A stretch of DNA of 64,000 bases, taken from positions 3,410,001 to 3,474,000 of the forward strand of contig NZ_CP042220.2 of the NCBI RefSeq assembly GCF_007858975.2, in the 5' to 3' direction. Below the pieces are notes generated by a model. It had not been told where the DNA came from, did not search any database, and saw nothing but the letters and a program-made list of their open reading frames with translations. The DNA is from Dickeya poaceiphila. GTDB taxonomy: Bacteria; Pseudomonadota; Gammaproteobacteria; Enterobacterales; Enterobacteriaceae. Below are positions 21,271 to 37,598 of the stretch, piece by piece (position 1 is the stretch's first letter; each line of letters opens with the position of its first letter). The position numbers were made by a program, and so were the translations under genes.

Positions 21271-21840
21271 AACTACTCACATCGCACCTCCTGTATTAGA
21301 CATAAACCTTCAAACCGTTTTAACCATGAATAAAATCATTGCGCTACTCCGGTGGTTATAAATAACGAGTCTCCCTCACATTTCGCATAATTTATATTCC
21401 GCAGGCCACTGATGTCCTCGCTGAAAAACACGCCAAATATCCATATCATTCCTATACACCTGGAATAAAAAGCGCGCTATGAATCAATACACCACTACTC
21501 ACCCTATTTCATCAGACGTAATAAATACCACTAGTTAAAAAACATGACGCCGATAACAGAATACAGCACGCCTATGCCTGACACCGAAAAAATGACTTAA
21601 AACAATATTTGCGTGGGGTCACAGATTCCCTGCTGATGGCCATTTTATCCATAAGATCAGCGAATACGCCCTGACCCTCTTCCCATGACAAAAACTACTG
21701 TTTTGTTATGAACGTTGAGTGGAGGAAAAATAATGCCGCCTGTCGTATCCCGATACAGGCGACAATGTTGAATACCCAATAATACCGCTGTCCCCAAGAA
21801 CGAAAACCGATAGCCAATGATTACCAGAGAGGACACTTTT
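21271..21840. other. Upstream region of ytfQ
   Basis: 570 bases without a supported gene; presumably the ytfQ promoter and 5' region. No perfect CRP site seen. Confidence 0.3.
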
Positions 21841-22797
21841 ATGTGGAAACGCGTCATTTTAGCTTCAGCTGTATGTGCGTCACTGTCATCAGTCGCGCTG
21901 GCAGCGCCATTGACAGTGGGATTTTCTCAAGTCGGATCGGAATCAGGCTGGCGCGCGGCTGAAACGACCGTGGCCAAAGAGCAGGCAAAAGCGCGCGGTA
22001 TTAACCTGAAAATTGCCGATGCCCAGCAAAAACAGGAGAACCAGATCAAAGCAGTACGCTCCTTTATCGCACAAGGGGTGGACGCTATTTTCATTGCTCC
22101 CGTGGTAGCAACCGGCTGGGAACCCGTGCTGAAAGAAGCCAAAGAAGCCAGGATACCAGTAATTCTGCTAGACCGCGGTATTGACGTCAAAGACGACTCG
22201 CTTTATCTCACTACCGTACGCGCCGACAATATCAAAGAAGGGGCATTAATTGGCGAATGGCTGATTAAAACCGAAAACGGCAAAACCTGTAATGTCGTTC
22301 AATTAGAAGGCACCGTCGGCGCCAGCGTCGCCATTGACCGTAAAAAAGGGTTTGAAGACGCTATCGCTAAAACACCGAATATTAAAATTATCCGTTCCCA
22401 GTCTGGCGACTTTACCCGTAGCGGCGGCAAACAGGTAATGGAAAGTTTTATCAAGTCAGAGAATAACGGCAAAAATATCTGCATGGTTTTCGCCCATAAC
22501 GACGATATGGTGATCGGCGCCATTCAGGCTATTAAGGAAGCGGGGTTAAAACCGGGAAAAGATATTCTGACCGGATCGATTGACGGTGTGCCGGATATTT
22601 TCCGTGCCATGCTGGCAAACGAGGCTAATGTCTCGGTTGAACTGACGCCAAATATGGCCGGGCCGGCATTTGATGCGCTGGAAAAATATAAAAAGGATGG
22701 CACATTGCCAGCCAAACTGATTCTGACGCCGTCCACCCTATTTAAACCAGACAGCGCACAGGCTGAGCTCGATAAGAAAAAGAACATGGGATATTGA
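21841..22797 (+). CDS. ytfQ: Galactofuranose ABC transporter, periplasmic binding protein YtfQ
   Basis: A 318-residue periplasmic binding protein (type I fold) with signal peptide MWKRVILASAVCASLSSVALA. It matches E. coli YtfQ almost throughout (AAPLTVGFSQVGSESGWRAA, NQIKAVRSFIAQGVDAIFIAP, GTVGASVAIDRKKGF, VFAHNDDMVIGAIQAIKEAG, DILTGSIDGVPDIF). E. coli YtfQ binds galactofuranose and galactopyranose. ATG 21841 follows GAGAGGACAC and is chosen over an in-frame start at 21817. It is the first gene of ytfQ-ytfR-ytfT-yjfF. Confidence 0.97.
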   Translation: MWKRVILASAVCASLSSVALAAPLTVGFSQVGSESGWRAAETTVAKEQAKARGINLKIADAQQKQENQIKAVRSFIAQGVDAIFIAPVVATGWEPVLKEAKEARIPVILLDRGIDVKDDSLYLTTVRADNIKEGALIGEWLIKTENGKTCNVVQLEGTVGASVAIDRKKGFEDAIAKTPNIKIIRSQSGDFTRSGGKQVMESFIKSENNGKNICMVFAHNDDMVIGAIQAIKEAGLKPGKDILTGSIDGVPDIFRAMLANEANVSVELTPNMAGPAFDALEKYKKDGTLPAKLILTPSTLFKPDSAQAELDKKKNMGY

Positions 22798-22863
22798 TAG
22801 CTCACCACCGCCATGGCCACTACCGCCATGGCGGACATCGCCTGTTTTGTGAGGGAGAATCGC

Positions 22864-24366
22864 ATGAACGGTTTCGACAACCAGGAAATCTTGCGTACGG
22901 AAGGGCTGAGCAAAATTTTTCCTGGGGTGAAAGCACTGGACAAGGTCGATTTCAGCCTGCGGCGCGGGGAAATCATGGCATTGCTGGGGGAAAATGGCGC
23001 GGGCAAATCTACGCTTATCAAAACGCTCACCGGCGTATACCAACGCGATGCGGGCACTATCTATCTCGAAGGTCAGCCCATTTCACCGAAAAATACCGCT
23101 CACGCCCAGCAACTGGGCATCGGCACGGTATATCAGGAAGTTAACCTGCTGCCCAATCTGTCAGTGGCGGATAACCTGTTTATTGGCCGCGAACCCAGAC
23201 GCTTCGGATTACTGCAACGCACCGAGATGGAAAAGCGCGCAGAAGCGCTGATGTCCTCCTATGGCTTCGAACTGGATGTCCGCGAACCGCTGAACCGCTT
23301 TTCCGTGGCGATGCAGCAAATCGTCGCCATCTGCCGCGCCATTGACCTGTCCGCCAGGGTGTTAATCCTCGACGAACCTACCGCCAGTCTTGACACTCAG
23401 GAAGTAGAGATGCTGTTCACCCTGATGCGTCAACTGCGCGATCAGGGCGTCAGTCTGATCTTCGTCACGCATTTTCTCGACCAGGTTTATCAGGTGACCG
23501 ACCGCATTACCGTGCTGCGCAACGGCGCATTCGTCGGCACCCACGACACGGCATCGCTGCCGCAGATAGAACTGGTAAAAATGATGCTGGGCCGCGAACT
23601 GGAGCAGAACGCGCTGCAACGCGCCGGACGCACGTTGCTGAGCGACAAGCCGGTAGTGGAATTCAAAGGCTACGGCAAAAAAGGGGTGATTGAACCATTC
23701 GAACTGGCGGTACGGCCTGGTGAAATCGTCGGTCTTGCCGGGTTGCTGGGTTCCGGGCGCACAGAAACCGCCGAAGTGATCTTCGGCATCAAACCAGCTG
23801 ATCGCGGTGAAGCGGTGATCAAAGGCAAATCGCAGACGTTGCGCTCGCCGCATCAGGCCTCCTGCCTTGGCATCGGTTTTTGCCCGGAAGATCGCAAAAC
23901 CGACGGCATTATCGCTGCCGCGTCGGTACGGGAGAATATCATTCTGGCGCTGCAAGCCCAGCGCGGCTGGCTACGCCCCATACCCCGCAAGGAGCAGCTA
24001 GCCATTGCCGAGCGATTCATTCGCCAGCTTGGCATCCGCACCCCAAGCGCCGATCAACCCATCGAATTGCTGTCCGGCGGTAACCAACAGAAAGTGCTGT
24101 TGTCCCGCTGGCTGCTGACCAAGCCGCAATTCCTGATCCTGGATGAACCGACCCGCGGCATCGACGTCGGCGCTCATGCCGAGATCATCCGGTTGATCGA
24201 AAGTCTGTGCGCCAATGGGCTGGCGCTGCTGGTGATCTCGTCCGAACTGGAAGAACTGGTGGGGTACGCCGACCGGGTACTGATTATGCGTGACCGGCAG
24301 CAGGTGGCGGAAATCCCGCTCGACCAGCTATCCGTTTCCGCCATCATGAATGCCATCGCGGCATAA
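22864..24366 (+). CDS. ytfR: Sugar ABC transporter ATP-binding protein YtfR
   Basis: A 500-residue tandem ABC ATPase of the CUT2 type that powers galactofuranose uptake. The first nucleotide-binding domain has Walker A GENGAGKST near 42 and Walker B ILILDEPTASLD; its signature region is degenerate (NRFSVAMQQ). The second has a degenerate Walker A (GLLGSGRTE), signature LSGGNQQK and Walker B FLILDEPTRGID. This pairing is normal for CUT2 proteins. ATG 22864 has GAGGGAGA upstream and gives the E. coli length; an upstream frame extension is not used. The gap to ytfQ is 66 bases. Confidence 0.96.
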   Translation: MNGFDNQEILRTEGLSKIFPGVKALDKVDFSLRRGEIMALLGENGAGKSTLIKTLTGVYQRDAGTIYLEGQPISPKNTAHAQQLGIGTVYQEVNLLPNLSVADNLFIGREPRRFGLLQRTEMEKRAEALMSSYGFELDVREPLNRFSVAMQQIVAICRAIDLSARVLILDEPTASLDTQEVEMLFTLMRQLRDQGVSLIFVTHFLDQVYQVTDRITVLRNGAFVGTHDTASLPQIELVKMMLGRELEQNALQRAGRTLLSDKPVVEFKGYGKKGVIEPFELAVRPGEIVGLAGLLGSGRTETAEVIFGIKPADRGEAVIKGKSQTLRSPHQASCLGIGFCPEDRKTDGIIAAASVRENIILALQAQRGWLRPIPRKEQLAIAERFIRQLGIRTPSADQPIELLSGGNQQKVLLSRWLLTKPQFLILDEPTRGIDVGAHAEIIRLIESLCANGLALLVISSELEELVGYADRVLIMRDRQQVAEIPLDQLSVSAIMNAIAA

Positions 24367-24379
24367 GGAGGGCATAGTG

Positions 24380-25417
24380 ATGCCTCGATCACTGAGCAAG
24401 CCGGGTTCTGATAAACACCCGTTTCGCTGGCCGTCATTACGGTTTTCACAGGGTATGCCGCAGATAGCCGCGCTGGCGCTGGTACTGCTGGTAGACAGCC
24501 TGGTCGCCAGCCACTTTTTCCAGATTGTCGTGCAGGATGGCCGCTTGTTCGGTAGCCCCATCGATATCCTTAACCGTGCCGCACCGGTGGCGTTGCTGGC
24601 GATCGGCATGACGCTGGTGATCGCCACCGGCGGCATTGACCTGTCGGTCGGGGCGATTATGGCGATTTCCGGGGCGGTTGCAGCATCGCTCACCGTACAA
24701 GGCTACAGCCTGTCGGTAGTGCTGCTGGCGGCGCTCGGCGTCGGCATGTTGGCCGGGTTGTGGAACGGTATTCTGGTTGCTGTCCTGAAGATTCAGCCAT
24801 TCGTCGCTACCTTGATCCTGATGGTAGCCGGGCGCGGTATCGCCCAGTTGATTACCGCCGGGCAGATAGTCACCTTCAACTCGCCGCCGCTGGCATGGCT
24901 TGGCAGCGGCGCGCTATTCTACTTCCCAACGCCGGTCATCATTGCGCTGGTCACACTGCTGTTGTTCTGGTTGCTGGTGCGGCGCACCGCGCTGGGGCTG
25001 TTCATCGAATCAGTGGGGATCAACATCCGGGCGGCGAAAAACGCCGGGGTCAGTACCCGCGCCATGGTGACCATGACGTATATACTGAGCGGGCTGTGTG
25101 CCGCCATCGCCGGGGTGATCGTCACCGCCGATATTCGGGGTGCTGATGCCAACAACGCCGGTCTGTGGCTGGAGATGGACGCCATTCTCGCCGTGGTGAT
25201 CGGTGGCGGTTCGCTGATGGGTGGTCGCTTCAACATGGTACTTTCCGTGTTAGGCGCGCTGATTATTCAGGGCATGAACACCGGTATTCTGCTGTCAGGT
25301 TTTCCACCGGAGCTCAATCAGGTGGTGAAAGCCGTCGTGGTATTGTGCGTACTGGTCGTCCAGTCGCCACGTTTTGTGACCTTGCTGAAAGGAGCTGGCC
25401 GCCATGATAAAGCGTAA
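24380..25417 (+). CDS. ytfT: Sugar ABC transporter permease YtfT
   Basis: A 345-residue inner membrane permease with about eight to ten hydrophobic segments, pairing with YjfF to form the channel of the galactofuranose importer. Typical CUT2 permease text: LNRAAPVALLAIGMTLVIATGGIDLSVG (quoted in part), AAKNAGVSTRAM, DAILAVVIGGGSLMGG. AAGGAGGG precedes; GTG at 24377 is an equally good start. It starts 13 bases after ytfR and its 3' end overlaps yjfF by 14 bases. Confidence 0.95.
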   Translation: MPRSLSKPGSDKHPFRWPSLRFSQGMPQIAALALVLLVDSLVASHFFQIVVQDGRLFGSPIDILNRAAPVALLAIGMTLVIATGGIDLSVGAIMAISGAVAASLTVQGYSLSVVLLAALGVGMLAGLWNGILVAVLKIQPFVATLILMVAGRGIAQLITAGQIVTFNSPPLAWLGSGALFYFPTPVIIALVTLLLFWLLVRRTALGLFIESVGINIRAAKNAGVSTRAMVTMTYILSGLCAAIAGVIVTADIRGADANNAGLWLEMDAILAVVIGGGSLMGGRFNMVLSVLGALIIQGMNTGILLSGFPPELNQVVKAVVVLCVLVVQSPRFVTLLKGAGRHDKA

Positions 25418-26396
25418 CTTGCCGCTGATGATCACACTGGCGGTATTCGTGCTTGGGTACCTGTACTGCCTGACGCAATTTCCAGGTTTCGCCTCCACGC
25501 GTGTCATCTGCAACATTCTTACCGATAATGCCTTTCTGGGTATTGTCGCCGTCGGCATGACCTTTGTGATCCTCTCCGGCGGTATCGACCTGTCCGTCGG
25601 GTCGGTGATCGCGTTTACCGGCGTGTTCCTCGCCAAAGCCATCGGCATGTGGGGACTGTCGCCGCTGGTGGCGTTCCCGTTGATCCTGCTGATGGGGTGC
25701 GCCTTTGGCGCATTCATGGGCCTGCTCATCGATGCGTTAAAAATCCCGGCGTTTATTATCACGCTGGCGGGAATGTTCTTTCTGCGCGGCGCCAGCTATC
25801 TGGTATCGAAAGAATCCCTGCCGATTAACCACCCGATCTACGAGACGCTCTCCAGTCTGGCATGGACTATCCCCGGCGGCGGTCGGCTCAGCGCCATGGG
25901 GCTGTTGATGCTGATGGTGGTCGCCGTCGGCATCGTGCTGGCGCGCCATACCCGCTTCGGCAATCAGGTTTACGCCATCGGCGGCAACAGCACCTCCGCC
26001 AACCTGATGGGTATTTCCACCCGCAGCACCACCATTCGCATTTACATGCTGTCCACCGGGCTGGCGACCCTCGCCGGGATCGTATTCTCCATTTATACCT
26101 CGGCAGGTTATGCGCTGGCGGGTGTTGGGGTCGAGCTGGACGCCATCGCCTCGGTGGTGATCGGCGGCACGCTGCTGAGCGGCGGCGTCGGCACCGTACT
26201 CGGCACGCTGTTCGGCGTGGCGATTCAGGGGTTGATTCAGACCTACATCAACTTTGACGGCACGCTCAGTTCCTGGTGGACCAAGATTGCCATCGGCATA
26301 TTGCTGTTTGTATTCATTGCCCTGCAACGCGGCCTGACCGCACTGTGGGAAAACCGCCAGAACGCGCCGGTAAAACGTGTCGTCCCGCACGGATAA
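25404..26396 (+). CDS. yjfF: Sugar ABC transporter permease YjfF
   Basis: A 330-residue CUT2 permease, the second membrane subunit of the YtfQRT-YjfF importer. Shared motifs are GMTFVILSGGIDLSVGSV, YAIGGNSTSANLMGIST and DAIASVVIGGTLLSGG. ATG 25404 has AAAGGAGCTGG upstream, inside the end of ytfT, so translation is coupled. Length matches E. coli (331). Confidence 0.95.
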   Translation: MIKRNLPLMITLAVFVLGYLYCLTQFPGFASTRVICNILTDNAFLGIVAVGMTFVILSGGIDLSVGSVIAFTGVFLAKAIGMWGLSPLVAFPLILLMGCAFGAFMGLLIDALKIPAFIITLAGMFFLRGASYLVSKESLPINHPIYETLSSLAWTIPGGGRLSAMGLLMLMVVAVGIVLARHTRFGNQVYAIGGNSTSANLMGISTRSTTIRIYMLSTGLATLAGIVFSIYTSAGYALAGVGVELDAIASVVIGGTLLSGGVGTVLGTLFGVAIQGLIQTYINFDGTLSSWWTKIAIGILLFVFIALQRGLTALWENRQNAPVKRVVPHG

Positions 26397-26785
26397 CGGC
26401 AGAACCGATCACCCTCCCCCATACGCAGGTGTGAAAAACGTAGGTGTGAGATGCCCCACAAGGCCTCACCCTACGTTTGTACTCGTCTGACGCACCTACG
26501 CGCCTTTAGCCCAACGTCGCACACCTGCGGCAAACTTGCTATTGGCCGGAATACGCCTATGTTTGAATACAGGAACAGCGCATATTGTCATCGGGCAACG
26601 ACCCGCATAGCGCTTTTCGACCTTGCCACCCTTCGCTTTCCTTTCTTCACACCACCAGGTTGTACGTTGTTCGAACATAACGATATGAGGTTACCGTCAG
26701 CACGGTACTTAGCCTGTGCAACGTTTTTTTCGGGTGGCGATACTTCACTGTTCGACATTGACACGTTCTATCGAGAGGAAATGTT
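26397..26785. other. Intergenic region before the decarboxylase gene
   Basis: 389 bases with no supported gene; likely carries the promoter of the downstream gene. No operator recognised. Confidence 0.3.
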
Positions 26786-28207
26786 ATGACGCATACCAAA
26801 AGCCGCACAACAAGTACACCTGAAGCAGAACAGTCGCCACATTACGAAAGCAGCGGACACAGCCTGCTTACCCTGGATAACGCCGGGCCGATCCAGATGG
26901 GATTTTGGGTACCCAACCGGGTATGGGCTACCGCAAAATTCCTGATACCACTGCGCGAGCATATCGCCAACAAGAAACATACCAATACCCTGACGCCAAT
27001 GCAGCCGGTGCTCCAGAACTTTAAAAACTGGGTGACCAACCACAGCGTCTACCGCATGTGGCTCAATAGCATGATCGAACAATCCAACGCCTATGTTGCT
27101 TCTCTGCCCGAATCCACCCGCAAGCAGATCAGCGACGATGGCGATGCGACCTGGATAGACAGCTACGACAGCTTCTTCGAGATCCTCAACGAAATCATCA
27201 CCACCTCACCGTCGTTCAACACCACCGTACAAGTCGGGACTCCGATGAATGCGTTTCTGGCGGTGGCAATGGGGACAGAAGCAGGCGTGGCACTGTTCCA
27301 CGACGCTACGTTCAATCAGCAGTTCCGCCAGATGTTGGACGCCTGGAACACCTTCCTGAAAAGCAGCGCCTCACTCGACAAACTCGATATCGAGCAACCG
27401 GAAAAACCCGGCTCCTGGATCTCCAAAGCCGCATATCAGGCCGGCGTCTGGCACCAGATGCAGCACGATCCCAACCGACCGGGCTACGGTTTCGCCAGCT
27501 GGAACGATTTCTTTATCCGTCAGTTCGTACCCGGCGCGCGCCCATTCCAGGGCGATCCAAACACCCAGATAGATATCGGCTGCGAAACCACACCGTGGCG
27601 ATATGCTGACCAGTTGCAGTTGGAGAGCCGATTCTGGGTCAAAGACATCCCCTATTCACTGCTCGATCTGTTCGGTGGACAGCGGCAATGGGCCAAACTG
27701 TTCGAAGGAGGGCAGCTTTATCAAGGGTTCCTCTCCGCCACCCACTATCATCGCTGGAACTCGCCGCTAGACGGTTTTCTGGTGCGTTCCTGGGTTGAAC
27801 CGGGTACTTATTTTGCTCAGCGTCCTGGGCAGGGCGAAAATCAGGGCACCTGGGAAGGCACTGAGTCACAACCGTACCTCGGCCATGTGGCCGCACGCGC
27901 GGTGTTTATCTTCCGGCACAAGACCTGTGGTTATGTGGCGCTAATCTGCATCGGCATGGTGGAAGTTTCCAGCTGTGTGATCGAACCCAGCACCTTTATC
28001 GTTGAAGAAAGCGCCGAGCCGGTTAGCATCACGCGCGGCGTCGAAATCGGTCACTTCGAGTTCGGCGGCTCGACCCACATGATGATCTTCCAGAAAGATC
28101 GAGTAGCGTTGGAAAAATGGGCCATCGACGCCGTCAGTCACCGCAACGATAAAAACCCCATCCCGCTTGGCAGCGTGATCGCCACTGCGCGGGATAGCAA
28201 AGGCTAA
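26786..28207 (+). CDS. Phosphatidylserine-decarboxylase-like protein (predicted pyruvoyl amino acid decarboxylase)
   Basis: A 473-residue protein with an N-terminal helical PSD-associated domain (about 30-230) and a C-terminal PSD catalytic domain. The family residues are visible: THYHRWNSP with His320/His322, and the self-cleavage motif FGGST with Ser429, which would become the pyruvoyl group; cleavage would give a small alpha chain of about 45 residues. There is no signal peptide or membrane anchor, unlike the true Psd. This architecture resembles the fungal tryptophan decarboxylase PsiD, a PSD relative acting on a free amino acid. The substrate cannot be told. The eutE-like and eutR-like genes follow; a strong terminator separates it from eutE. 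GAGAGGAA precedes ATG 26786. Confidence 0.82.
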   Translation: MTHTKSRTTSTPEAEQSPHYESSGHSLLTLDNAGPIQMGFWVPNRVWATAKFLIPLREHIANKKHTNTLTPMQPVLQNFKNWVTNHSVYRMWLNSMIEQSNAYVASLPESTRKQISDDGDATWIDSYDSFFEILNEIITTSPSFNTTVQVGTPMNAFLAVAMGTEAGVALFHDATFNQQFRQMLDAWNTFLKSSASLDKLDIEQPEKPGSWISKAAYQAGVWHQMQHDPNRPGYGFASWNDFFIRQFVPGARPFQGDPNTQIDIGCETTPWRYADQLQLESRFWVKDIPYSLLDLFGGQRQWAKLFEGGQLYQGFLSATHYHRWNSPLDGFLVRSWVEPGTYFAQRPGQGENQGTWEGTESQPYLGHVAARAVFIFRHKTCGYVALICIGMVEVSSCVIEPSTFIVEESAEPVSITRGVEIGHFEFGGSTHMMIFQKDRVALEKWAIDAVSHRNDKNPIPLGSVIATARDSKG

Positions 28208-28220
28208 TCAGCACCCACAT

Positions 28221-28258
28221 CGGGTTTCGGCTGCGGCCTGGGCCACAGCCGAAACCCG
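28221..28258 (+). terminator. Terminator of the PSD-like gene
   Basis: CGGGTTTCGGCTG and CAGCCGAAACCCG form a perfect 13-pair stem with a 12-base loop. Confidence 0.8.
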
Positions 28259-28671
28259 CATCATCGTCCGATGATTTCTTTTCTGTTAATCGATGGTTCT
28301 TTTTTCGTGATCTCTTTCAACCTTTACGCCGACTTGCCGAATTTTGTTATTCGCTTTGACCTGCCGTTGCCACAATGACCACAAGTCAACACAGGAAACA
28401 CCGGGCCGCCCCATCAGAACAGGCGCGGCATTAAAATGGAAGGGTTCTCTCAGGGATGAGAATCCTCCGGGCGCGGCACAATCCTTCTGGCTTCCCTGGT
28501 TGGAATGGCGCCCTCTGCGCGTACCAAGCCGAACGCAGCCGGACTTGAATAATACGCCGAATCCGCATCCGTACTTTTTCCGTACTTTTGGCCACGGCAC
28601 TGTTGATCAACGCCATGTAAACCGATGATCAGCGTGGTTTAAACAAGTTACATAACAAGAGGATAGACCCT
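28259..28671. other. Upstream region of the eutE-like gene
   Basis: 413 bases without a supported gene. Presumably contains the promoter and the EutR-type control site; none can be placed with confidence. Confidence 0.3.
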
Positions 28672-30051
28672 ATGGAACACTCCGTGATCGAACCGACCGT
28701 ACCGATGCCCACCCCGGTGATGTTTGATGCACCGAGCGGTATTTTCGACTCGCTTGACGACGCGGTTCAGGCTGCAACGCACGCTCAGCAGCAATTGAGC
28801 AGCGTCGAACTACGTCAACAGGTGATTAAGGCGATTCGGGTTGCTGGCGAGCGCTATGCTCAGGTACTGGCGGAAATGGCAGTGGCCGAAACCGGCATGG
28901 GACGCGTGGTCGATAAGTACATCAAGAACGTGTCGCAGGCGCGCCATACGCCGGGAATCGAGTGCCTGTCGGCGGAAGTGCTGACCGGCGACAACGGGTT
29001 GACGCTGATCGAAAACGCGCCATGGGGGGTCGTGGCGTCGGTCACACCCTCTACCAACCCGGCAGCGACGGTAATCAACAATGCCATCAGCATGATCGCA
29101 GCGGGCAACAGCGTGGTGTTCGCCCCTCATCCGTCGGCGAAACATGTATCGCTGCGTACCATCAGCCTGCTCAACAAAGCGATTGTCGCCACCGGCGGCC
29201 CGGAGAACCTGCTGGTCAGCGTCTTCGAACCCAACATTGAAACCGCGCAACGTCTGTTTTGCTACCCCGGCATCGGCCTGCTGGTGGTCACCGGCGGCGA
29301 AGCGGTGGTGGAAGCGGCACGCAAACATACCGACAAACGGCTGATTGCCGCCGGAGCGGGTAACCCACCGGTAGTGGTGGATGAAACCGCGGACATTCCG
29401 AAAGCGGCCCGCGCCATCGTTAAAGGCGCTTCATTCGACAACAACATCATCTGTGCCGACGAGAAGGTATTGATCGTAGTGGACAGCGTGGCTGATGCTT
29501 TGCTGGCAGAAATGCAGCACAACCATGCCGTGCTGCTCACACCGGAACAAACCGAACAATTGCTGCCGGTGCTGTTGAGCGATATCGACCCGCAGGGTAA
29601 AGGTCGCGTCAACCGCGATTATGTTGGCCGCGATGCCGCTAAACTTGCTGCGGCTATTGGTCTGGAAGTCAGTGAACATACCCGCCTGCTATTGGCTGAA
29701 ACCGACGCCAGCCACCCGTTCGCCATCACTGAACTGATGATGCCGGTACTGCCGGTAGTGCGGGTGAAAAACGTGGATGACGCCATCGCGCTGGCGCTTA
29801 CGCTGGAAAACGGCTGTCGCCACACTGCCGCGATGCACTCCACCAATATCAGGAATCTGAACCGTATGGCGAACGCCATCAACACCAGTATTTTCGTCAA
29901 AAACGGCCCTTGTATCGCCGGGCTGGGGCTGGGCGGCGAAGGCTGGACCTCGATGACCATCTCGACGCCGACCGGTGAAGGCGTGACCTCGGCCCGCACC
30001 TTTGTTCGCCTGCGGCGCTGTGTGCTGGTGGATATGTTCCGTATCGCCTGA
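28672..30051 (+). CDS. eutE: Acetaldehyde dehydrogenase (CoA-acylating), EutE-like
   Basis: A 459-residue CoA-acylating aldehyde dehydrogenase that converts acetaldehyde, CoA and NAD+ to acetyl-CoA. Most of the sequence matches EutE: TGDNGLTLIENAPWGVVASV, GGEAVVEAARKH, KRLIAAGAGNPPVVVDETAD and the active-site DNNIICADEK with Cys261. The N-terminus is divergent (MEHSVIEPTVPMPTPVMFD) and lacks the amphipathic helix that targets PduP/EutE into microcompartments. No shell, ammonia-lyase or alcohol dehydrogenase genes are near. AAGAGGATAG precedes the ATG. A terminator follows at 30069. Confidence 0.92.
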   Translation: MEHSVIEPTVPMPTPVMFDAPSGIFDSLDDAVQAATHAQQQLSSVELRQQVIKAIRVAGERYAQVLAEMAVAETGMGRVVDKYIKNVSQARHTPGIECLSAEVLTGDNGLTLIENAPWGVVASVTPSTNPAATVINNAISMIAAGNSVVFAPHPSAKHVSLRTISLLNKAIVATGGPENLLVSVFEPNIETAQRLFCYPGIGLLVVTGGEAVVEAARKHTDKRLIAAGAGNPPVVVDETADIPKAARAIVKGASFDNNIICADEKVLIVVDSVADALLAEMQHNHAVLLTPEQTEQLLPVLLSDIDPQGKGRVNRDYVGRDAAKLAAAIGLEVSEHTRLLLAETDASHPFAITELMMPVLPVVRVKNVDDAIALALTLENGCRHTAAMHSTNIRNLNRMANAINTSIFVKNGPCIAGLGLGGEGWTSMTISTPTGEGVTSARTFVRLRRCVLVDMFRIA

Positions 30052-30068
30052 ATGGGGTCGCTGCGTTA

Positions 30069-30095
30069 TTGCCGCTGGTTAACCTCCAGCGGCAA
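30069..30095 (+). terminator. Terminator of eutE
   Basis: TTGCCGCTGG, seven-base loop, CCAGCGGCAA; perfect ten-pair stem, weak T tract. Confidence 0.65.
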
Positions 30096-30317
30096 CATCA
30101 CCACGTAACCGGACATAAAGGAGATAAACAGAGGACGAGAAAGCAACGGACGGGTCATATCAGAATAAGGCTAAATGTGCTTTAGCGCCTGTTCCTCCCC
30201 AATCGAATGCCGTATAACGAGCTAATGTATGGGTCTGCCTGAGTGTCGTCCACCGACATGGCGCAGCCATCATGCAGAGTGGACCCCGCCCGACATTGTC
30301 ACGGAGGTGAGCTGACG

Positions 30318-31361
30318 ATGAAACACAATCCGGTCAACCTGCATCATCTGGATGCAGAGCACCGTCTCCCGGCAACAACGCCAGTGTCGCCAGACGATAA
30401 CATACACCAATGTCAGACACAGGATGTCTACGCCCAATCCCGCACCATTACCGCCTGGCAGCAGATTTATGACCAGGTTTCGCCGGGGCATTTCACAGGG
30501 GAATTACGAGAAATTCTGCTCGATGGCATCCAGCTTTGCCACGAATACACCAGTCTGGCGTTGCGCCAGTCCTGCATGATATGGCCGGATTCCTTCTGGT
30601 TCGGTATTCCCGCCCGCCATGCAGGAACCGGCTTCATCGGTTCTTATCCCATCAGCAACAGTGCGATTGCCGTCAGCCCCGGAGGTAAAGAATTCGAGCT
30701 GAACACGCCGGATGACTACGCCATTCTGGGCGTGGCTATCTCCCGCGACGAACTGCTGCAATACACCGATGTGCTGGAAGAACCGGAGCCATTGACCCGC
30801 CTGCTGGCGCAAAGCTCCACCTTACTGGTGGAGCCGCACAGGCGCGAGATCTTCTGGTCGTTTGTACGCGAAGCGCTGTGGTATGGCTGCAACGAGCCGC
30901 AACGTCTGCAACATAGCAATGCGGTCAAAGTACTGAAACACAATCTGCTGACTACGGTGATTTCGTTTCTGGAAAGCGCCCAACCAGCCGATGTCAACAC
31001 TGCACATACCGGCAGACGCATCGGCTACCGCAGCCTGATTGGCTGCGCCAGAGAATATGTACTCAGCCAGCAGTCGGAACCGGTCACGGTGCTTGACCTG
31101 TGCCGCCGCCTGCATGTCAGCCGCCGCACGCTGCAAAACGCATTCTGCGATGTGATGGGCTGCGGTCCTAACGCCTGGCTGAAGATGATCCGCCTCAACG
31201 CGGTACGTCGTGAGCTGGTCAGCCCCTACTCCCGTCATCACACCGTGCAGGATGCCGCGATGCAATGGGGCTTCTGGCACCTGAGCCAGTTCGCCTGCGA
31301 CTACCAGCGACTGTTTGGTGAAAAGCCCTCGGTGACGCTCAAGGCTCGATTAGCAGGATAA
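30318..31361 (+). CDS. eutR: AraC-family regulator, EutR-like
   Basis: A 347-residue AraC/XylS activator. In E. coli and Salmonella EutR (350 residues) senses ethanolamine plus adenosylcobalamin and turns on the eut operon. Strong matches are ITAWQQIYDQVSPGHFTGE, LALRQSCMIWPDSFWFGIPA, the first helix-turn-helix SEPVTVLDLCRRLHVSRRTLQ and NAWLKMIRLNAVRRELVSP, and MQWGFWHLSQFACDYQRLFGEKPS at the C-terminus (read in parts). ATG 30318 with GGAGGTGAG upstream is preferred; the frame is open to 30243. It likely controls eutE and perhaps the PSD-like gene upstream. Confidence 0.92.
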   Translation: MKHNPVNLHHLDAEHRLPATTPVSPDDNIHQCQTQDVYAQSRTITAWQQIYDQVSPGHFTGELREILLDGIQLCHEYTSLALRQSCMIWPDSFWFGIPARHAGTGFIGSYPISNSAIAVSPGGKEFELNTPDDYAILGVAISRDELLQYTDVLEEPEPLTRLLAQSSTLLVEPHRREIFWSFVREALWYGCNEPQRLQHSNAVKVLKHNLLTTVISFLESAQPADVNTAHTGRRIGYRSLIGCAREYVLSQQSEPVTVLDLCRRLHVSRRTLQNAFCDVMGCGPNAWLKMIRLNAVRRELVSPYSRHHTVQDAAMQWGFWHLSQFACDYQRLFGEKPSVTLKARLAG

Positions 31362-31428
31362 GTGAAAACAACTGTAAGCTGAAATAAGGAAGGTAGGTAT
31401 TGCCGGATTTTCATCCGGCAAGCCTGGA

Positions 31429-32406
31429 TCACGCATTCAGCGCATCAAACGCGCGACGGATATCGTCTTGCGGCAGTCGGATACCGATAAACACCATCAC
31501 GCTCTCACGCGGTTCATCCGCGTGCCATGCCCGGTCCCAGTCGGCGCTGTAAAGCCGTTGCACCCCCTGAAACAGCAGGCGGCGGTCATCGCCGTTAATC
31601 GCCAGAACGCCTTTATAGCGCAATAGATTATCGGCGCAATTCACCAGCAACTGCTCCATCACCGCCGATACCGCCGCCATATCTACCGGACGCGTCAGTT
31701 GCACCACCAGCGAGGTGATGGCGTTATCCTGCTCGATTAATGGCCGGAAACGCGGCTGAGAAATCTGTAGCTGATCATTGAGCATGAAACCATCGACGCC
31801 GAAGATCTGGCGGTGGTCGATCTGACCGTTCACCACCCGATACAGGCTGGCACGGGCGTTGATACGCGCCAGTCTCTCCTCCAGTGCCTGCGTCTCACCT
31901 GCCAGATCAGTCTTGGTCAGCAATATCCGGTCAGCGTAGCCTACCTGCGCCTGTGCTACGGTGTGCCGGTTCAGTTGGTCATCGGCGTGCACCGCATCTA
32001 CCAGCGCAATCACGCCATCCAACAGGAAGCGTTGGCTCAGGCGTTCGTCAGAAAAAAAGGTTTGAATCACCGGCCCCGGATCGGCCATACCGGTACATTC
32101 GATCACCAGCCGGTCAAACGCCAGCTCGCCGCTGTCGATGCCGTCCAGCAGTTCATGCAGCGCATCGGACAGCTCATTCGCGCTGCTACAGCAGATACAC
32201 CCATTGCTGAGCGTGGTGATACGGGTCGCCCGGTCGCCCAGCAGGGCATCATCAATCGCCACCGCACCGAATTCATTTTCAATCACAGCGATCTTTTCAC
32301 CGTGGTCGGCATACAACAGGTGCCGCAGTAGCGTGGTTTTACCCGCGCCGAGAAAGCCGGTAAGAATAGTTGCGGGTAATACCGCTGCCGGTAATGAATG
32401 GGTCAT
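31429..32406 (-). CDS. yjiA: GTP-binding metallochaperone YjiA (COG0523/CobW family)
   Basis: A 325-residue G3E-family P-loop GTPase. Walker A is GFLGAGKTTLL near 17-27, the family metal-binding CICC motif is in LSNGCICCSS, base specificity is NKxD-like LTKTDL, and a C-terminal CobW_C domain follows. E. coli YjiA binds transition metals such as zinc and cobalt and is thought to be a metal carrier; its target is unknown. Same orientation and order btsT-yjiX-yjiA as in E. coli, so co-transcription is likely. Confidence 0.93.
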   Translation of the reverse strand: MTHSLPAAVLPATILTGFLGAGKTTLLRHLLYADHGEKIAVIENEFGAVAIDDALLGDRATRITTLSNGCICCSSANELSDALHELLDGIDSGELAFDRLVIECTGMADPGPVIQTFFSDERLSQRFLLDGVIALVDAVHADDQLNRHTVAQAQVGYADRILLTKTDLAGETQALEERLARINARASLYRVVNGQIDHRQIFGVDGFMLNDQLQISQPRFRPLIEQDNAITSLVVQLTRPVDMAAVSAVMEQLLVNCADNLLRYKGVLAINGDDRRLLFQGVQRLYSADWDRAWHADEPRESVMVFIGIRLPQDDIRRAFDALNA

Positions 32407-32436
32407 AATCGAAAAAACTCCTTCGCCCCTGGCGCG

Positions 32437-32640
32437 TCAACAGCACCGAAAACCGCCTTTGCCGCTGCCGCCATAGCGCGCCTGCTGGCGTTCACGGAAA
32501 AACTCCTCATAGCTCATGACATCCTGGTCCGGGTGGTTAGTCTGCATATGCTGCACGTAGTTGTCATAATCCGGGATGCCCACCAGCATTCTGGCGGCCT
32601 GCCCCAGATATTTTCCCGCTTTACCAAGATTTCCGAACAT
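32437..32640 (-). CDS. yjiX: YbdD/YjiX family small protein
   Basis: A 67-residue protein typical of the YbdD/YjiX family that always follows a CstA-type transporter gene. Conserved text: [34 protein letters not shown] and the cysteine-ending GGFRCC tail. In E. coli the paralogue pairs are btsT-yjiX and cstA-ybdD, and the small protein is thought to be required for pyruvate transport by its partner. It lies 101 bases after btsT and 30 before yjiA. Confidence 0.95.
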
Positions 32641-32741
32641 ATCGCCCTCTCTTCGTATGAGCGCCTGTAGTATGAGCCGACAAATATAAGCGCCGACAGG
32701 CCCGCACAGGTGCCTGTCGGCGGTATGTTCCTCACCGTCTG

Positions 32742-34889
32742 TTAATGATGGGAAGAAATCTTCACGCCACCTTCCGGCACCGGTACATAAGGCGTTTCCC
32801 GGTCGGAACGCTCCGACTGGTTACGTTCCCGCAACGCTGTACGAATACCATAGAAGATTATGCTATACACCACCACCAGGAACACCACGCTCAGCACCGC
32901 ATTGGTGTAGTTGTTAACAACGATGTGATGCATGTTGGCAATCTGCTGCGCGCTCAGATCCGTCCCTTCGGCAATGCGCTGTTTGTAAACGCGCGCCAGG
33001 TACAGGAACCCTTCCATCTGGGGATTATTGCTAAACAACTTCAGGCCCAGCGCCCAAGTGGTGCAAATCAGCAGCCAGACTGCCGGCAGCACCGTTACCC
33101 AGATATAACGCGTACGTTTCATCTTGATCAGCACCACGGTGCCCAGCACTAGCGCTACGGCGGCCAGCATCTGGTTGGAGATGCCGAACAGCGGCCACAA
33201 GCTCTTGACGCCACCCAGCGGATCGACCACGCCCTGATACAACAGGTAGCCCCACAGGCCGACGCAACCGGCAGTACCAACAATACCGGCGATCAGCGAA
33301 TCGGTCTTTTTCAGGAATGGTACGAAGTTACCCAGCAGGTCCTGCAACATAAAGCGGCCAGAGCGGGTACCGGCGTCCAGCGCGGTCAGAATAAACAGCG
33401 CTTCAAACAAGATTCCGAAGTGATACCAGAAACCCATGTTGGCGCTCGGAATGATCTGGTGGAACACATGGGCGATACCCACCGCCAGCGTTGGCGCGCC
33501 ACCGGCACGGTTGAGCACCGACGGTTCGCCGATGTCTTTCGCCGTTTGCAGGATCTGCTCCGGCGAAATCACAAACCCCCAGGCACTGACAGTGGCGGCG
33601 GCCTGTGCGGTGACATCATGCAATTGCGCCATAATCGCCGGCGCATTCGCGCCGCCTAGCTCGTGCAGGTTAGGCATGGTGATACCCAGCCCAACCGGCG
33701 GGGTGTTCATCGCAAAGTACAAACCCGGCTCAATAATCGACGCCGCAACCAGCGCCATAATGGCAACGAAAGATTCCATCAGCATCGCGCCATAACCGAT
33801 AAAGCGGGCGTCGGTTTCGTTAGCCAGTAGTTTCGGCGTCGTGCCGGATGCAATCAGCGCATGGAAGCCGGACACCGCGCCGCAGGCGATAGTAATAAAC
33901 AGGAATGGGAACAGCGCGCCTTTCCACACCGGACCGGTGCCGTCGATAAACTGCGTGATCGACGGCATTTTCAGCTCAGGATTGATGATCACGATGCCAA
34001 TCGCCAGACCGACGATCACCCCAATTTTCAGGAACGTCGCCAGATAGTCGCGCGGCGCCAGAATCAACCACACCGGCAGCAGCGCAGAAATAAACGCATA
34101 ACCGATCAGCGCAAAAGTGATGGTCGTATCCTTGAAGGTCAGTGCCGGCCCCCAGTACGGGTCGTGAGCGATGACGCCGCCAAACCAGATGGCCAGCAGC
34201 AGCAGCACGATACCAATCACCGAGACTTCCCCCACCCGACCAGGACGCAGGAAGCGCATATAAATGCCCATAAACAGTGCGATAGGCACGGTGGAGCAAA
34301 CGGTAAACACACCCCATGGGCTTTCCGCCAGCGCTTTCACCACGATCAACGCCAGTACCGCCAGAATAATGATCATAATCAGGAAGCAGCCGAACAGCGC
34401 GATAGTGCCGGGCACCGGCCCCATTTCCTCTTTGATCATTTCCCCAAGCGATACGCCATTGCGGCGGGTTGACATGAACAGCACCATGAAGTCCTGCACG
34501 GCACCGGCCAACACCACCCCGGCCAGCAGCCACAGCGTGCCGGGCAGGTAGCCCATCTGAGCCGCCAGCACCGGTCCCACCAGCGGGCCAGCGCCGGCAA
34601 TCGCCGCAAAGTGGTGACCGAACAACACATTGCGGTTGGTCGGCACATAGTTAAGCCCGTCATTGTTAACCACTGCCGGCGTGGCGCGGTTAGCGTCAAG
34701 TTGCATCACCTTACGGGCGATATACAGGCTGTAATAACGGTAAGCCACCAGGTAGACCGCCACCGAGGCGACCACTATCCACATGGCGCTGACGTGCTCA
34801 CCGCGACGCAGCGCGACCACCCCCAGGCAACATGCCCCAATGAACCCCAGCAACGCCCAGGGAAGATGCCTGAGAAGTTTATCTTTCAT
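32742..34889 (-). CDS. btsT: Pyruvate/proton symporter BtsT (CstA family)
   Basis: A 715-residue inner membrane protein with about 16-18 hydrophobic segments, the size of E. coli BtsT (716). BtsT takes up pyruvate with protons under nutrient limitation. The CstA signatures are present: [41 protein letters not shown] and [16 protein letters not shown] (in parts). The next genes in the direction of transcription are yjiX and yjiA; directly upstream are btsR and btsS in the same orientation. Three regularly spaced candidate BtsR sites lie 94-141 bases upstream of the start. Confidence 0.96.
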
Positions 34890-34982
34890 AGCGTTTACCC
34901 TTCTTATAATGTCGTTATTAATGATGTAGTCACGTTTCGTGACTGTAAGCGGGCCACAAGTGGGGTCATAGCTGAATTTGGG

Positions 34983-35030
34983 TAAGTGGTCGGATAAGCC
35001 GATGACCGGTCACATATCAGGATAAGCGGT
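34983..35030 (-). promoter_or_regulatory. Candidate BtsR binding sites upstream of btsT
   Basis: On the minus strand ACCGCTTA (35030-35023), ACCGGTCA (35010-35003) and ACCACTTA (34990-34983) recur at exactly 20-base intervals. The reported E. coli BtsR (YehT) motif is a direct repeat of ACC[G/A]CT[C/T]A with a 13-base spacer, so the element matches well in sequence and closely in spacing. It is located 94-141 bases before the btsT start. Confidence 0.7.
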
Positions 35031-35187
35031 GAAGAATTTTTACTTAATTTGAAGCAATTCACCCTGCAGTGAGCAACAGACGAGATGTCATGCCAACGCG
35101 TATTCACGCATCGGCCAAACAAGAAGCTAACAAGGCAACAGCAGCAAACACAGAAGACAGGCAACGCAGACAATTGCCGGGAGCGGT

Positions 35188-35913
35188 TCAGCCTTTGAGG
35201 CCAAGCCATTGCTTGAGGGTTTTCAGATAGCGACGGCTAACCGGTAACGCCAGGCCGCTTTTTAGCAGAATCTCCGCCTGGCCGCTCTCTTCCAGCCGGA
35301 TTTCGCGCAGATAGTCCATATTGACCAGATATTGCCGATGACAGCGCACCAGCGGAGTACGGCTTTCCAGCGTTTTCAGCGTCAATTCGGTAAAGCACTC
35401 CTCCCCTTGCGGCCCCGTCACGTAGACGCCGCTCTGACGTGAGCTGGCAAACTGCACCTCGCTGCTTTTCATCAGGTAGATCCGGCTATGTCCGGTGCAC
35501 GGGATGTAGTCAAGACCAACCTGATGATCAGACAATTTGTCGATACTCTGTGCTGGCCGCTCACGATGCAGATTGCGCAAGGTTTTTGCCAGCCGCTGCG
35601 GATCGATAGGTTTAAGCAGGTAATCAAACGCCTGTTCCTCAAACGCCTTGATGGCATATTCGTCGTAGGCGGTAATGAACACAATGTAGGGCATGTTGTC
35701 CGGATCGATCATGCCAATCATCTCCAGCCCACTGATACGCGGCATCTGAATATCCAGAAACACCACATCAGGATGCAAGCGGTGAATCGCGCTGATCGCC
35801 TCTATCGCGTTCGCGCACTCGCCCACCAGCTCAAGACCATCATCCTGTTCCAGCAGGCAGCGCAGGTTGTCCCGCGCCAGCGGTTCATCATCAACAATCA
35901 GTACGTTCAGCAT
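35188..35913 (-). CDS. btsR: LytTR response regulator BtsR
   Basis: A 241-residue response regulator: receiver domain ([16 protein letters not shown], phosphoacceptor Asp54 in VVFLDIQMP, Thr and Lys in TAYDEYA and YLLKPID) and a C-terminal LytTR DNA-binding domain ([22 protein letters not shown], in parts). In E. coli BtsR is activated by BtsS when pyruvate is sensed and turns on btsT. The start overlaps the btsS stop by seven bases. E. coli has btsSR away from btsT; here they are adjacent. Confidence 0.95.
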
Positions 35914-37598
35914 GGCTGGCTTTCCTCACAAGGCAGCGTCACATGGATATGGGTATAACGCTCAGGCTCACACTCCACGCTCAGGCCATAATCATTGCCA
36001 TAGCGGCTGCGAATGCGCTTATCCACCAGATTCATCCCCAGCCCGGTGCAGTTGGTTCGCGGCTGGTACAAACCAGCATTATCCTCAATGCTCAGCAACA
36101 GCCTGTCACCCTGCCGCCTGGCGCTGATGGTGATCACCCCCGTCCCCAGCAGGTGTGCCGTACCGTGTTTTATCGCGTTTTCCACCAGCGGTTGCAGTGA
36201 GAACGCCGGTAACCGCATCGACATTAACGCCTGCGGCAGGTCAAAACGAATTTGCAGCCGTTCCTGAAAGCGGGCTTTCTCAATCTGCAAATAAGCGTTC
36301 ACATGCTCTATCTCATCGGCCAGCGTAACCACTTCCTCAGAACGTTTAAGATTTTTACGGAAAAACGTCGAGAGCGACTGCACCAGTTTACCGGCCTGTT
36401 CACTATCGCGGCGAATCACCGCCAACAGCGTGTTGAGCGCGTTAAACAGGAAATGTGGATTAACCTGCGCGTGAAGCAGTTTGATTTCCGATTGCGTCAG
36501 CAACTGCTTGCTGCGCTCATACTGGCCGGCCAGAATCTGCGCGGCCAGCAGGCGGGCGATGCCTTCACCAAAGGTACGGTTGATTGAACTGAACAGCCGA
36601 TTTTTGGCCTCATACAGTTTGATGGTGCCGATCACCTGCTGATTCTCGCCGCACAGCGGGATCACCAGCGTGGACCCCAAACGGCAACCGGACTGCAACG
36701 AGCACTGGTAAGGTGTTTCATTGCCGTCGGCGTACACCACCTCGTTGTGCTCAATGGCTCGCCGGGTATGGCCCGATGCGATAGGTGTTCCCGGAAGATG
36801 GTGATCGTCGCCGATACCGATAAAGGCCAGCAGTTTTTCACGATCAGTGATCGCCACCGCGCCGATATCCATCTCCTGATAGATAACCTGCGCCACCTTC
36901 ATGCTGTTTTCTTCGTTAAACCCTTGATGCAGGATACCTTCGGTACAGGCGGCGATTTTTAATGCTCTGGCAGAAAACGCCGAGGTGTACTTTTCGAACA
37001 TGGCGCGCCGGTCCAGCAGGATTCGCATGAACATCGCCGCACCAATGCTGTTGGTAACAATCATCGGAGCGGCAATATCTTTAACCAGCCTCAGCGCATC
37101 ATCAAATGGTCGCGCCAGCAACAGAATAATCGCCATTTGCAGCAATTCGGCGATAAACGTCACCCCAGCTACGGTAAACGGGTTAAATAATCGGTCGATT
37201 CGGCCACGACGCATCAACCAACGGTGCGCCATGCCGCCCAACAGTCCCTCAACGATGGTTGATACCATGCAACTGAACGCGGTCATGCCGCCGAGCGAAT
37301 AACGGTGCAGCCCACCGGTCATCCCCACCAACACGCCAACGCCCGGCCCACCGAGCAGACCGCCCAGCACCGCCCCCATCGCGCGCGTATTGGCGATGGA
37401 GTCCTGTACATGCAGCCCGAAATAGGTCCCCATGATGCAGAACATGGAAAACATGGCATAACACAACAGTTTATGTGGCAGCCGGACCGTGACCTGCATC
37501 AACGGAATGAATAGCGGCGTTTTACTAAGCAGATAGGCGATCACCAGATACACGCACATCTGCTGGAGCAACAGTAAAACCAGTTTGAACTCATACAT
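35907..37598 (-). CDS. btsS: LytS-type sensor kinase BtsS
   Basis: A 563-residue histidine kinase and high-affinity pyruvate sensor. The N-terminus is a 5TM-LYT membrane domain ([41 protein letters not shown] in parts), then a GAF domain (about 210-350), then a HisKA_7TM-type kinase with [11 protein letters not shown] (phospho-acceptor His) and ATP-binding VENAIKHG. Very similar to E. coli YehU/BtsS in length and text. ATG 37598 is the conserved start. It opens the btsSR operon, with the dlt terminator 125 bases upstream. Confidence 0.96.

Follow-up and report, generated by a model that had tools for sequence, protein, structure and literature searches.

In the genome of Dickeya poaceiphila, three genes follow one another on the plus strand of a 64,000-nucleotide stretch (contig NZ_CP042220.2, positions 3,410,001 to 3,474,000; the whole stretch is called the window): a decarboxylase gene with a PSDC domain, eutE and eutR. 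The question that this locus raises is whether the three genes form one pathway. The initial annotation had described a reduced ethanolamine-type module, in which the decarboxylase may turn serine or another amino acid into the amine sensed by EutR, with EutE clearing the aldehyde formed later. Our results do not support a single module, and the neighbourhood probably consists of two unrelated units. In the full form of this explanation, to which we give an even chance, a decarboxylase of free amino acids (most likely basic ones, with arginine to agmatine as the best guess) stands beside eutE-eutR, the remnant of an eut operon. In window coordinates, the genes are:

26786-28207, plus strand: open reading frame (ORF) of the PSDC-domain decarboxylase, 473 amino acids
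28672-30051, plus strand: eutE ORF, 459 amino acids
30243-31361, plus strand: eutR ORF as listed, 372 amino acids counted from a GTG
30318-31361, plus strand: likely extent of eutR, 347 amino acids from the ATG at 30318

The match to the EutR profile begins at residue 26 of the listed ORF, which makes the ATG at 30318 the likely start. Each of the three is a genuine, undamaged gene that purifying selection maintains, and none of them resembles a decaying gene. Ratios of nonsynonymous to synonymous substitutions (dN/dS) in comparisons with other Dickeya were 0.034-0.084 for the decarboxylase (Musicola included), 0.032-0.055 for eutE and 0.052-0.086 for eutR; the neighbouring genes gave 0.011-0.086.

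The order and strand of the three genes are kept in seven of the nine genomes of the genus, in one of them (G008) with the gene of a C69-family peptidase (PF03577) between the decarboxylase and eutE. Genome G006 has eutE-eutR, but at the place expected for the decarboxylase there is no more than a short, weak similarity to the last part (3') of that gene; G001 carries neither a decarboxylase nor an EutR over cut-off. Musicola (G022) has the order ytfQRT-yjfF-decarboxylase-C69, with no eutE or eutR within the 20 kb taken and no EutR over cut-off; its name rests on a protein identical to P0001 over 473 residues. Prodigiosinella (G065) likewise has no EutR over cut-off, and there the decarboxylase-C69 pair (at 1.77 Mb) and EutB (at 2.23 Mb) are ~0.46 Mb apart. 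Unlinked genes in relatives, which the initial annotation had named as evidence against a module, were thus found in G006, G022 and G065. In six of the nine genus genomes, the decarboxylase still directly precedes eutE-eutR, which counts against two separate units.

A C69 peptidase gene lies 3' of the decarboxylase in Musicola, Prodigiosinella, Dickeya G008 and a Dactylosporangium metagenome-assembled genome (MAG). It is directly downstream in loci L071 (8009-9697), L075 (8242-9930), L085 (11522-13213) and L103 (3985-5637), which come from Pectobacteriaceae and the actinobacterial MAG, and the peptidases of these loci were 59-91% identical in the pairs compared. A tblastn search found no remnants of the peptidase in the gap at 28208-28671 of the window.

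The decarboxylase matched PSDC (PF12588, 116.6 bits) and PS_Dcarbxylase (PF02666, 92.7 bits), both above cut-off. It carries GGST with Ser429 and THYHRW at residues 319-324, confirming the motifs first described for this protein resembling phosphatidylserine decarboxylase (PSD). Residues G428 and S429 of the cleavage site and the catalytic H322 are invariant among 58 sequences (window protein included) and in the 87 rows of a second alignment. The protein is predicted to cleave itself to give a pyruvoyl enzyme. The structure model used for fold comparison had a predicted local distance difference test score (pLDDT) of 79.9; an earlier model built from 25 close sequences (pLDDT 62.8) was set aside. 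PsiD was the top fold match, and the agreement included the N-terminal domain. The nearest solved relatives in sequence were fungal decarboxylases of free amino acids (PsiD and the arginine decarboxylase of Aspergillus oryzae), E. coli PSD being much more distant. Both comparisons agree with the earlier hint at a PsiD-like enzyme for free amino acids. Judged from sequence, model and gene context, a free amino acid as substrate is well supported, a basic amino acid moderately and arginine weakly to moderately. Relatives carry the name phosphatidylserine decarboxylase (family), and the window protein is probably an enzyme named after a lipid substrate that is not its own.

The hint at arginine came from the gene clusters of relatives. 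In locus L114, a decarboxylase 65% identical to the window protein and placed within its clade of the tree stands in the order aguB, aguA, decarboxylase, antiporter-like ORF; the aguA product (agmatine deiminase) scored 548 bits against a cut-off of 382. Similar clusters occur in a distant subfamily, ~32% identical to the window protein and set on a long, strongly supported branch at a place in the tree where long branches meet, so that its position is to be read with caution. Within this subfamily, G329 (taken as Utexia) has aguB-aguA-antiporter-decarboxylase, and G425 (taken as Winslowiella) has aguB-aguA-PotE-decarboxylase and a second antiporter-decarboxylase pair. Decarboxylases of the same subfamily adjoin an antiporter alone in G064, in G162 (taken as Pantoea), on an Enterobacter plasmid and on a Photobacterium plasmid. 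Four full-length antiporters exceeded the score required for the basic amino acid/polyamine subfamily. Between L114 and G329, AguA, AguB and the antiporter are 69-78% identical and the decarboxylases only 31%, as if one decarboxylase had been swapped for another of equal function. Together with the window genome's own aguB-aguA, which lie away from the decarboxylase locus, these neighbourhoods favour arginine (giving agmatine, then putrescine) over the conversion of serine to ethanolamine. The window enzyme would then belong to the PSDC/PsiD group as a pyruvoyl-type decarboxylase that processes itself and converts arginine to agmatine, AguA and AguB of the same genome would carry agmatine on to putrescine, and the C69 peptidase may supply the amino acid in those relatives that have it 3' of the decarboxylase.

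The G425 locus (L149, 2980-10893) contains two PSDC decarboxylases facing each other, one preceded by aguB-aguA and the PotE-type antiporter, its partner by an antiporter of the basic amino acid/polyamine type; perhaps the pair serves two substrates. In six loci of one genus (L151-L156, g95), a PSDC decarboxylase is found a few kb from genes that, by the look of their starts, may encode carbamate kinase and ornithine carbamoyltransferase.

Several other observations weigh against our explanation, above all against arginine. The antiporter ORF of L114 is incomplete (361 residues; its stop codon comes 92 bases ahead of the end of the contig) and its 379 bits fall short of the cut-off of 409. An agu cluster accompanies the decarboxylase in 1 of 40 window-family loci, and AguA is above cut-off in 13 of the 40 genomes; Pectobacteriaceae and Pseudomonas account for 12 of these 13, a distribution that lineage may explain. 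Among distant relatives on plasmids, an antiporter adjoins the gene in two of the eight neighbourhoods viewed, the other six listing no adjacent amino acid antiporter in gene tables that are incomplete; among 16 distant-type genes in genome stretches, five have an antiporter beside them and 11 are without a tblastn match to one. SpeA is above cut-off in all nine genus genomes, so that Dickeya needs no other arginine decarboxylase for putrescine. Finally, in 246 columns that differ between the arginine enzyme and PsiD, the conserved residues of the window family matched the arginine enzyme 26 times and PsiD 23 times (L158 excluded as too divergent), which amounts to no preference for arginine or tryptophan.

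A general link between decarboxylase and AguA by co-occurrence is not supported by the 13 of 40 genomes, and, with SpeA in all nine genus genomes, we reject the idea that the decarboxylase substitutes for a missing SpeA in Dickeya. In all, SpeA was above cut-off in 30 of 52 genomes. These include G064, G162, G329 and G425; the genome of L114 (G824), which is possibly incomplete, had no SpeA above cut-off. Pseudomonas chlororaphis PCL1601 (G799, locus L089) has the decarboxylase and AguA and no SpeA over cut-off, possibly owing to assembly gaps, unlike the other eight Pseudomonas genomes, in which SpeA was over cut-off.

The likeliest alternative is that the decarboxylase has nothing to do with agmatine and takes a different free amino acid, be it tryptophan or some other aromatic one, lysine, ornithine or histidine. 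This is possible, if doubtful. PsiD as top fold match and the failure of sequence to separate arginine from tryptophan enzymes are consistent with it, as are the PotE-type putrescine-ornithine antiporter paired with one relative in G425 and the scores of the remaining antiporters on ornithine and histamine models, which stay under the cut-offs of those models. However, aguA-aguB beside members of two subfamilies indicate agmatine, and the four full-length antiporters over the basic amino acid/polyamine cut-off likewise count against this alternative.

The decarboxylase family may be the more interesting part of the locus. In named records we found 40 loci encoding proteins 59-95% identical to the window protein, distributed sporadically over Proteobacteria, Acidobacteria, Bacteroidetes, an actinobacterial MAG and others; a search of viral contigs returned no relative. 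In a tally of 116 neighbour genes from 35 loci, based on crude gene calling, no family occurred in more than six members (neighbours of >900 or <90 residues were dropped, L071, L072, L073, L075, L083, L084, L085 and L122 were omitted, and L101 gave no neighbour). The distant subfamily was matched by 7202 of 8000 scored candidates at E <= 0.001; all 120 matches listed have both domains and, where named, are called phosphatidylserine decarboxylase or a member of its family. We tentatively propose, at somewhat less than an even chance, that the bacterial PSDC-domain 'phosphatidylserine decarboxylase family proteins' are widespread pyruvoyl-dependent decarboxylases of basic amino acids (arginine), which form polyamine or acid-stress modules with antiporters and AguA-AguB and have spread singly, gene by gene, from phylum to phylum; the gene in Dickeya would be a free-standing member. 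Should the family indeed act on free amino acids, the lipid and polyamine pathways reconstructed for many genomes have to be revised. The kind of enzyme is already known, since Protein Data Bank (PDB) titles name an arginine decarboxylase of PSD fold in a fungus. We found no open-licence paper that treats the bacterial PSDC family as amino acid decarboxylases. A 2025 survey of gut bacteria (PMC12484125) distinguishes, in the part available, three known groups of pyruvoyl amino acid decarboxylases, histidine and aspartate among them, and describes the pyruvoyl arginine decarboxylases as having <200 residues; phosphatidylserine goes unmentioned in that part.

The eutE product scored 694.2 bits with NF011927 (PRK15398, 'aldehyde dehydrogenase'; cut-off 403), which we take to be the EutE-type group; the match starts at profile position 30 of 465, and Cys261 lies in ICADEK. 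It is 78.7% identical to the product of a G010 gene located in a 20 kb stretch with EutB and EutR, and its identity as EutE is therefore well supported. The eutR product reached 599.7 bits with the EutR equivalog NF007522 (cut-off 319). Both assignments stand as first annotated, the second as an AraC-type regulator, and so does the shortened EutE: in the window and in all seven Dickeya relatives compared, its N-terminus is unlike the start of the G010 protein, presumably the targeting helix.

The complete 4.32 Mb genome yielded no match for EutB, EutC or the bacterial microcompartment shell domain PF00936, each with a positive E. coli control. The absence of these genes, first noted for the window, is thus genome-wide and points to a pathway lost, not split; a split pathway, which the initial annotation had considered, is excluded for EutBC. 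Short eut operons without a shell exist (PMC5821096, seen in part), and shell absence alone is not decisive. EutR was over cut-off in 14 of 117 relatives' genomes, eight within the genus, all without EutB, and six outside it, all with EutB. In G010, EutB is flanked on its upstream side by the eutE relative and on its downstream side by eutR, with all three on one strand, and a single internal deletion would leave eutE-eutR; the window pair may have arisen from an eut operon in this way. The pair is kept under selection, EutE probably consuming acetaldehyde from other sources, with EutR as its regulator. Compared with EutR of five genomes that have EutB, the helix-turn-helix (DNA-binding) part shows 69-74% identity and the sensor part 48-52%, whereas the sensor parts of those five share 60-93% with one another, suggesting that the signal or ligand may have changed.

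It is rather unlikely, but compatible with two separate units, that eutE-eutR are kept for signalling, with EutR sensing ethanolamine from host membranes and controlling genes elsewhere and EutE as passenger or detoxifier. According to the part of PMC5821096 available, EutR switches on genes beyond the eut operon in enterohaemorrhagic E. coli and in Salmonella, even when ethanolamine is not broken down; this is a precedent for its retention as a sensor in the absence of that pathway. The dN/dS values of eutR and eutE (0.03-0.09) fit such retention, whereas the diverged sensor part leaves room for another ligand. The eutE-eutR remnant is in any case a natural test of the role of EutR without ethanolamine breakdown. 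The part of PMC3486870 available holds nothing on eut genes of Dickeya.

Three features between the coding regions bear on whether the decarboxylase and eutE belong together:

26397-26785, plus strand: intergenic region between yjfF and the decarboxylase; the leader at ~26530-26785 is well conserved
28221-28258, plus strand: inverted repeat directly 3' of the decarboxylase, with 18-nucleotide arms that are 94% complementary
28276-28671, plus strand: conserved region upstream of eutE, from an alignment of eight Dickeya loci

The leader before the decarboxylase is common to Dickeya and Musicola in a DNA alignment of eight sequences. Conservation of the eutE upstream region extends to every one of the eight loci, among them G006, which lacks the decarboxylase, and G008, where the C69 gene intervenes; this region is likely to contain the eutE promoter and regulatory region. 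The inverted repeat is a possible transcription stop, with a fold of -36.8 kcal/mol (z -5.9) for 28205-28290; a terminator scan did not list it, and it is not clearly retained in all relatives aligned.

One ethanolamine module is accordingly very unlikely: despite the order and strand kept in most of the genus and a corrinoid adenosyltransferase family member in the genome, no ammonia-lyase (EutB, EutC) joins ethanolamine to acetaldehyde, the units come apart in three relatives and are interrupted in G008, conserved upstream regions stand separately before each unit, and in the window a strong hairpin follows the decarboxylase. That the decarboxylase is a PSD paralogue yielding phosphatidylethanolamine, as its PF02666 domain and its relatives' names would have it, is more improbable still, because a second, distant match (G000:C1:532193-532840) is taken as the ordinary psd gene, the NCBIfam PSD equivalog cut-offs are missed by far (best 71.8 bits against 371; TIGR00163 44.4 against 111.75) and the window protein is much closer to soluble amino acid decarboxylases.

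Around the three genes, a 112-residue ORF (26451-26789) is unlikely to be a gene; its matches in relatives are weak or split, and it had no Pfam match. An Rfam search of 26300-31500 returned no RNA family, and hence no cobalamin riboswitch was detected there. The galactofuranose ATP-binding cassette transporter set ytfQ-ytfR-ytfT-yjfF (21817-26396, over NCBIfam cut-offs) precedes the decarboxylase in seven genus genomes and in Musicola. An inverted repeat 3' of yjfF, AAACGTAGGTGTGAG ... CTCACCCTACGTTT (26436-26478), is retained in most Dickeya aligned and is the likely terminator of the transporter operon. On the minus strand, 31429-37598 holds a yjiA GTPase gene and a CstA-type pyruvate/proton symporter gene (under its equivalog cut-off), followed by two genes that we presume to be btsR-btsS.

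Compared with known systems, the window shares with the enteric eut operon the EutE and EutR families and their relative order, as in G010; it differs in that its genome is without EutB, EutC and shell and its EutE without the N-terminal stretch. Where relatives of the decarboxylase adjoin antiporters and the aguA-aguB genes of the agmatine deiminase pathway, the window gene adjoins neither. With the arginine decarboxylase of Aspergillus oryzae (PDB 9jer, 9jf5; so named by PDB titles) the window protein shares 29.7% identity, that enzyme being fungal and the window enzyme bacterial and of predicted activity. Identity to PsiD, the L-tryptophan decarboxylase of Psilocybe (PDB 8zia, 8x4q), is 30.5%, with GGSS as cleavage site in PsiD (PMC6121855) and GGST in the window protein. 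E. coli PSD (PDB 7cnw) has the catalytic domain and the GST cleavage site in common with it, and His322 aligns with His144 of the E. coli enzyme, which is required for activity according to the part of PMC7952604 available.

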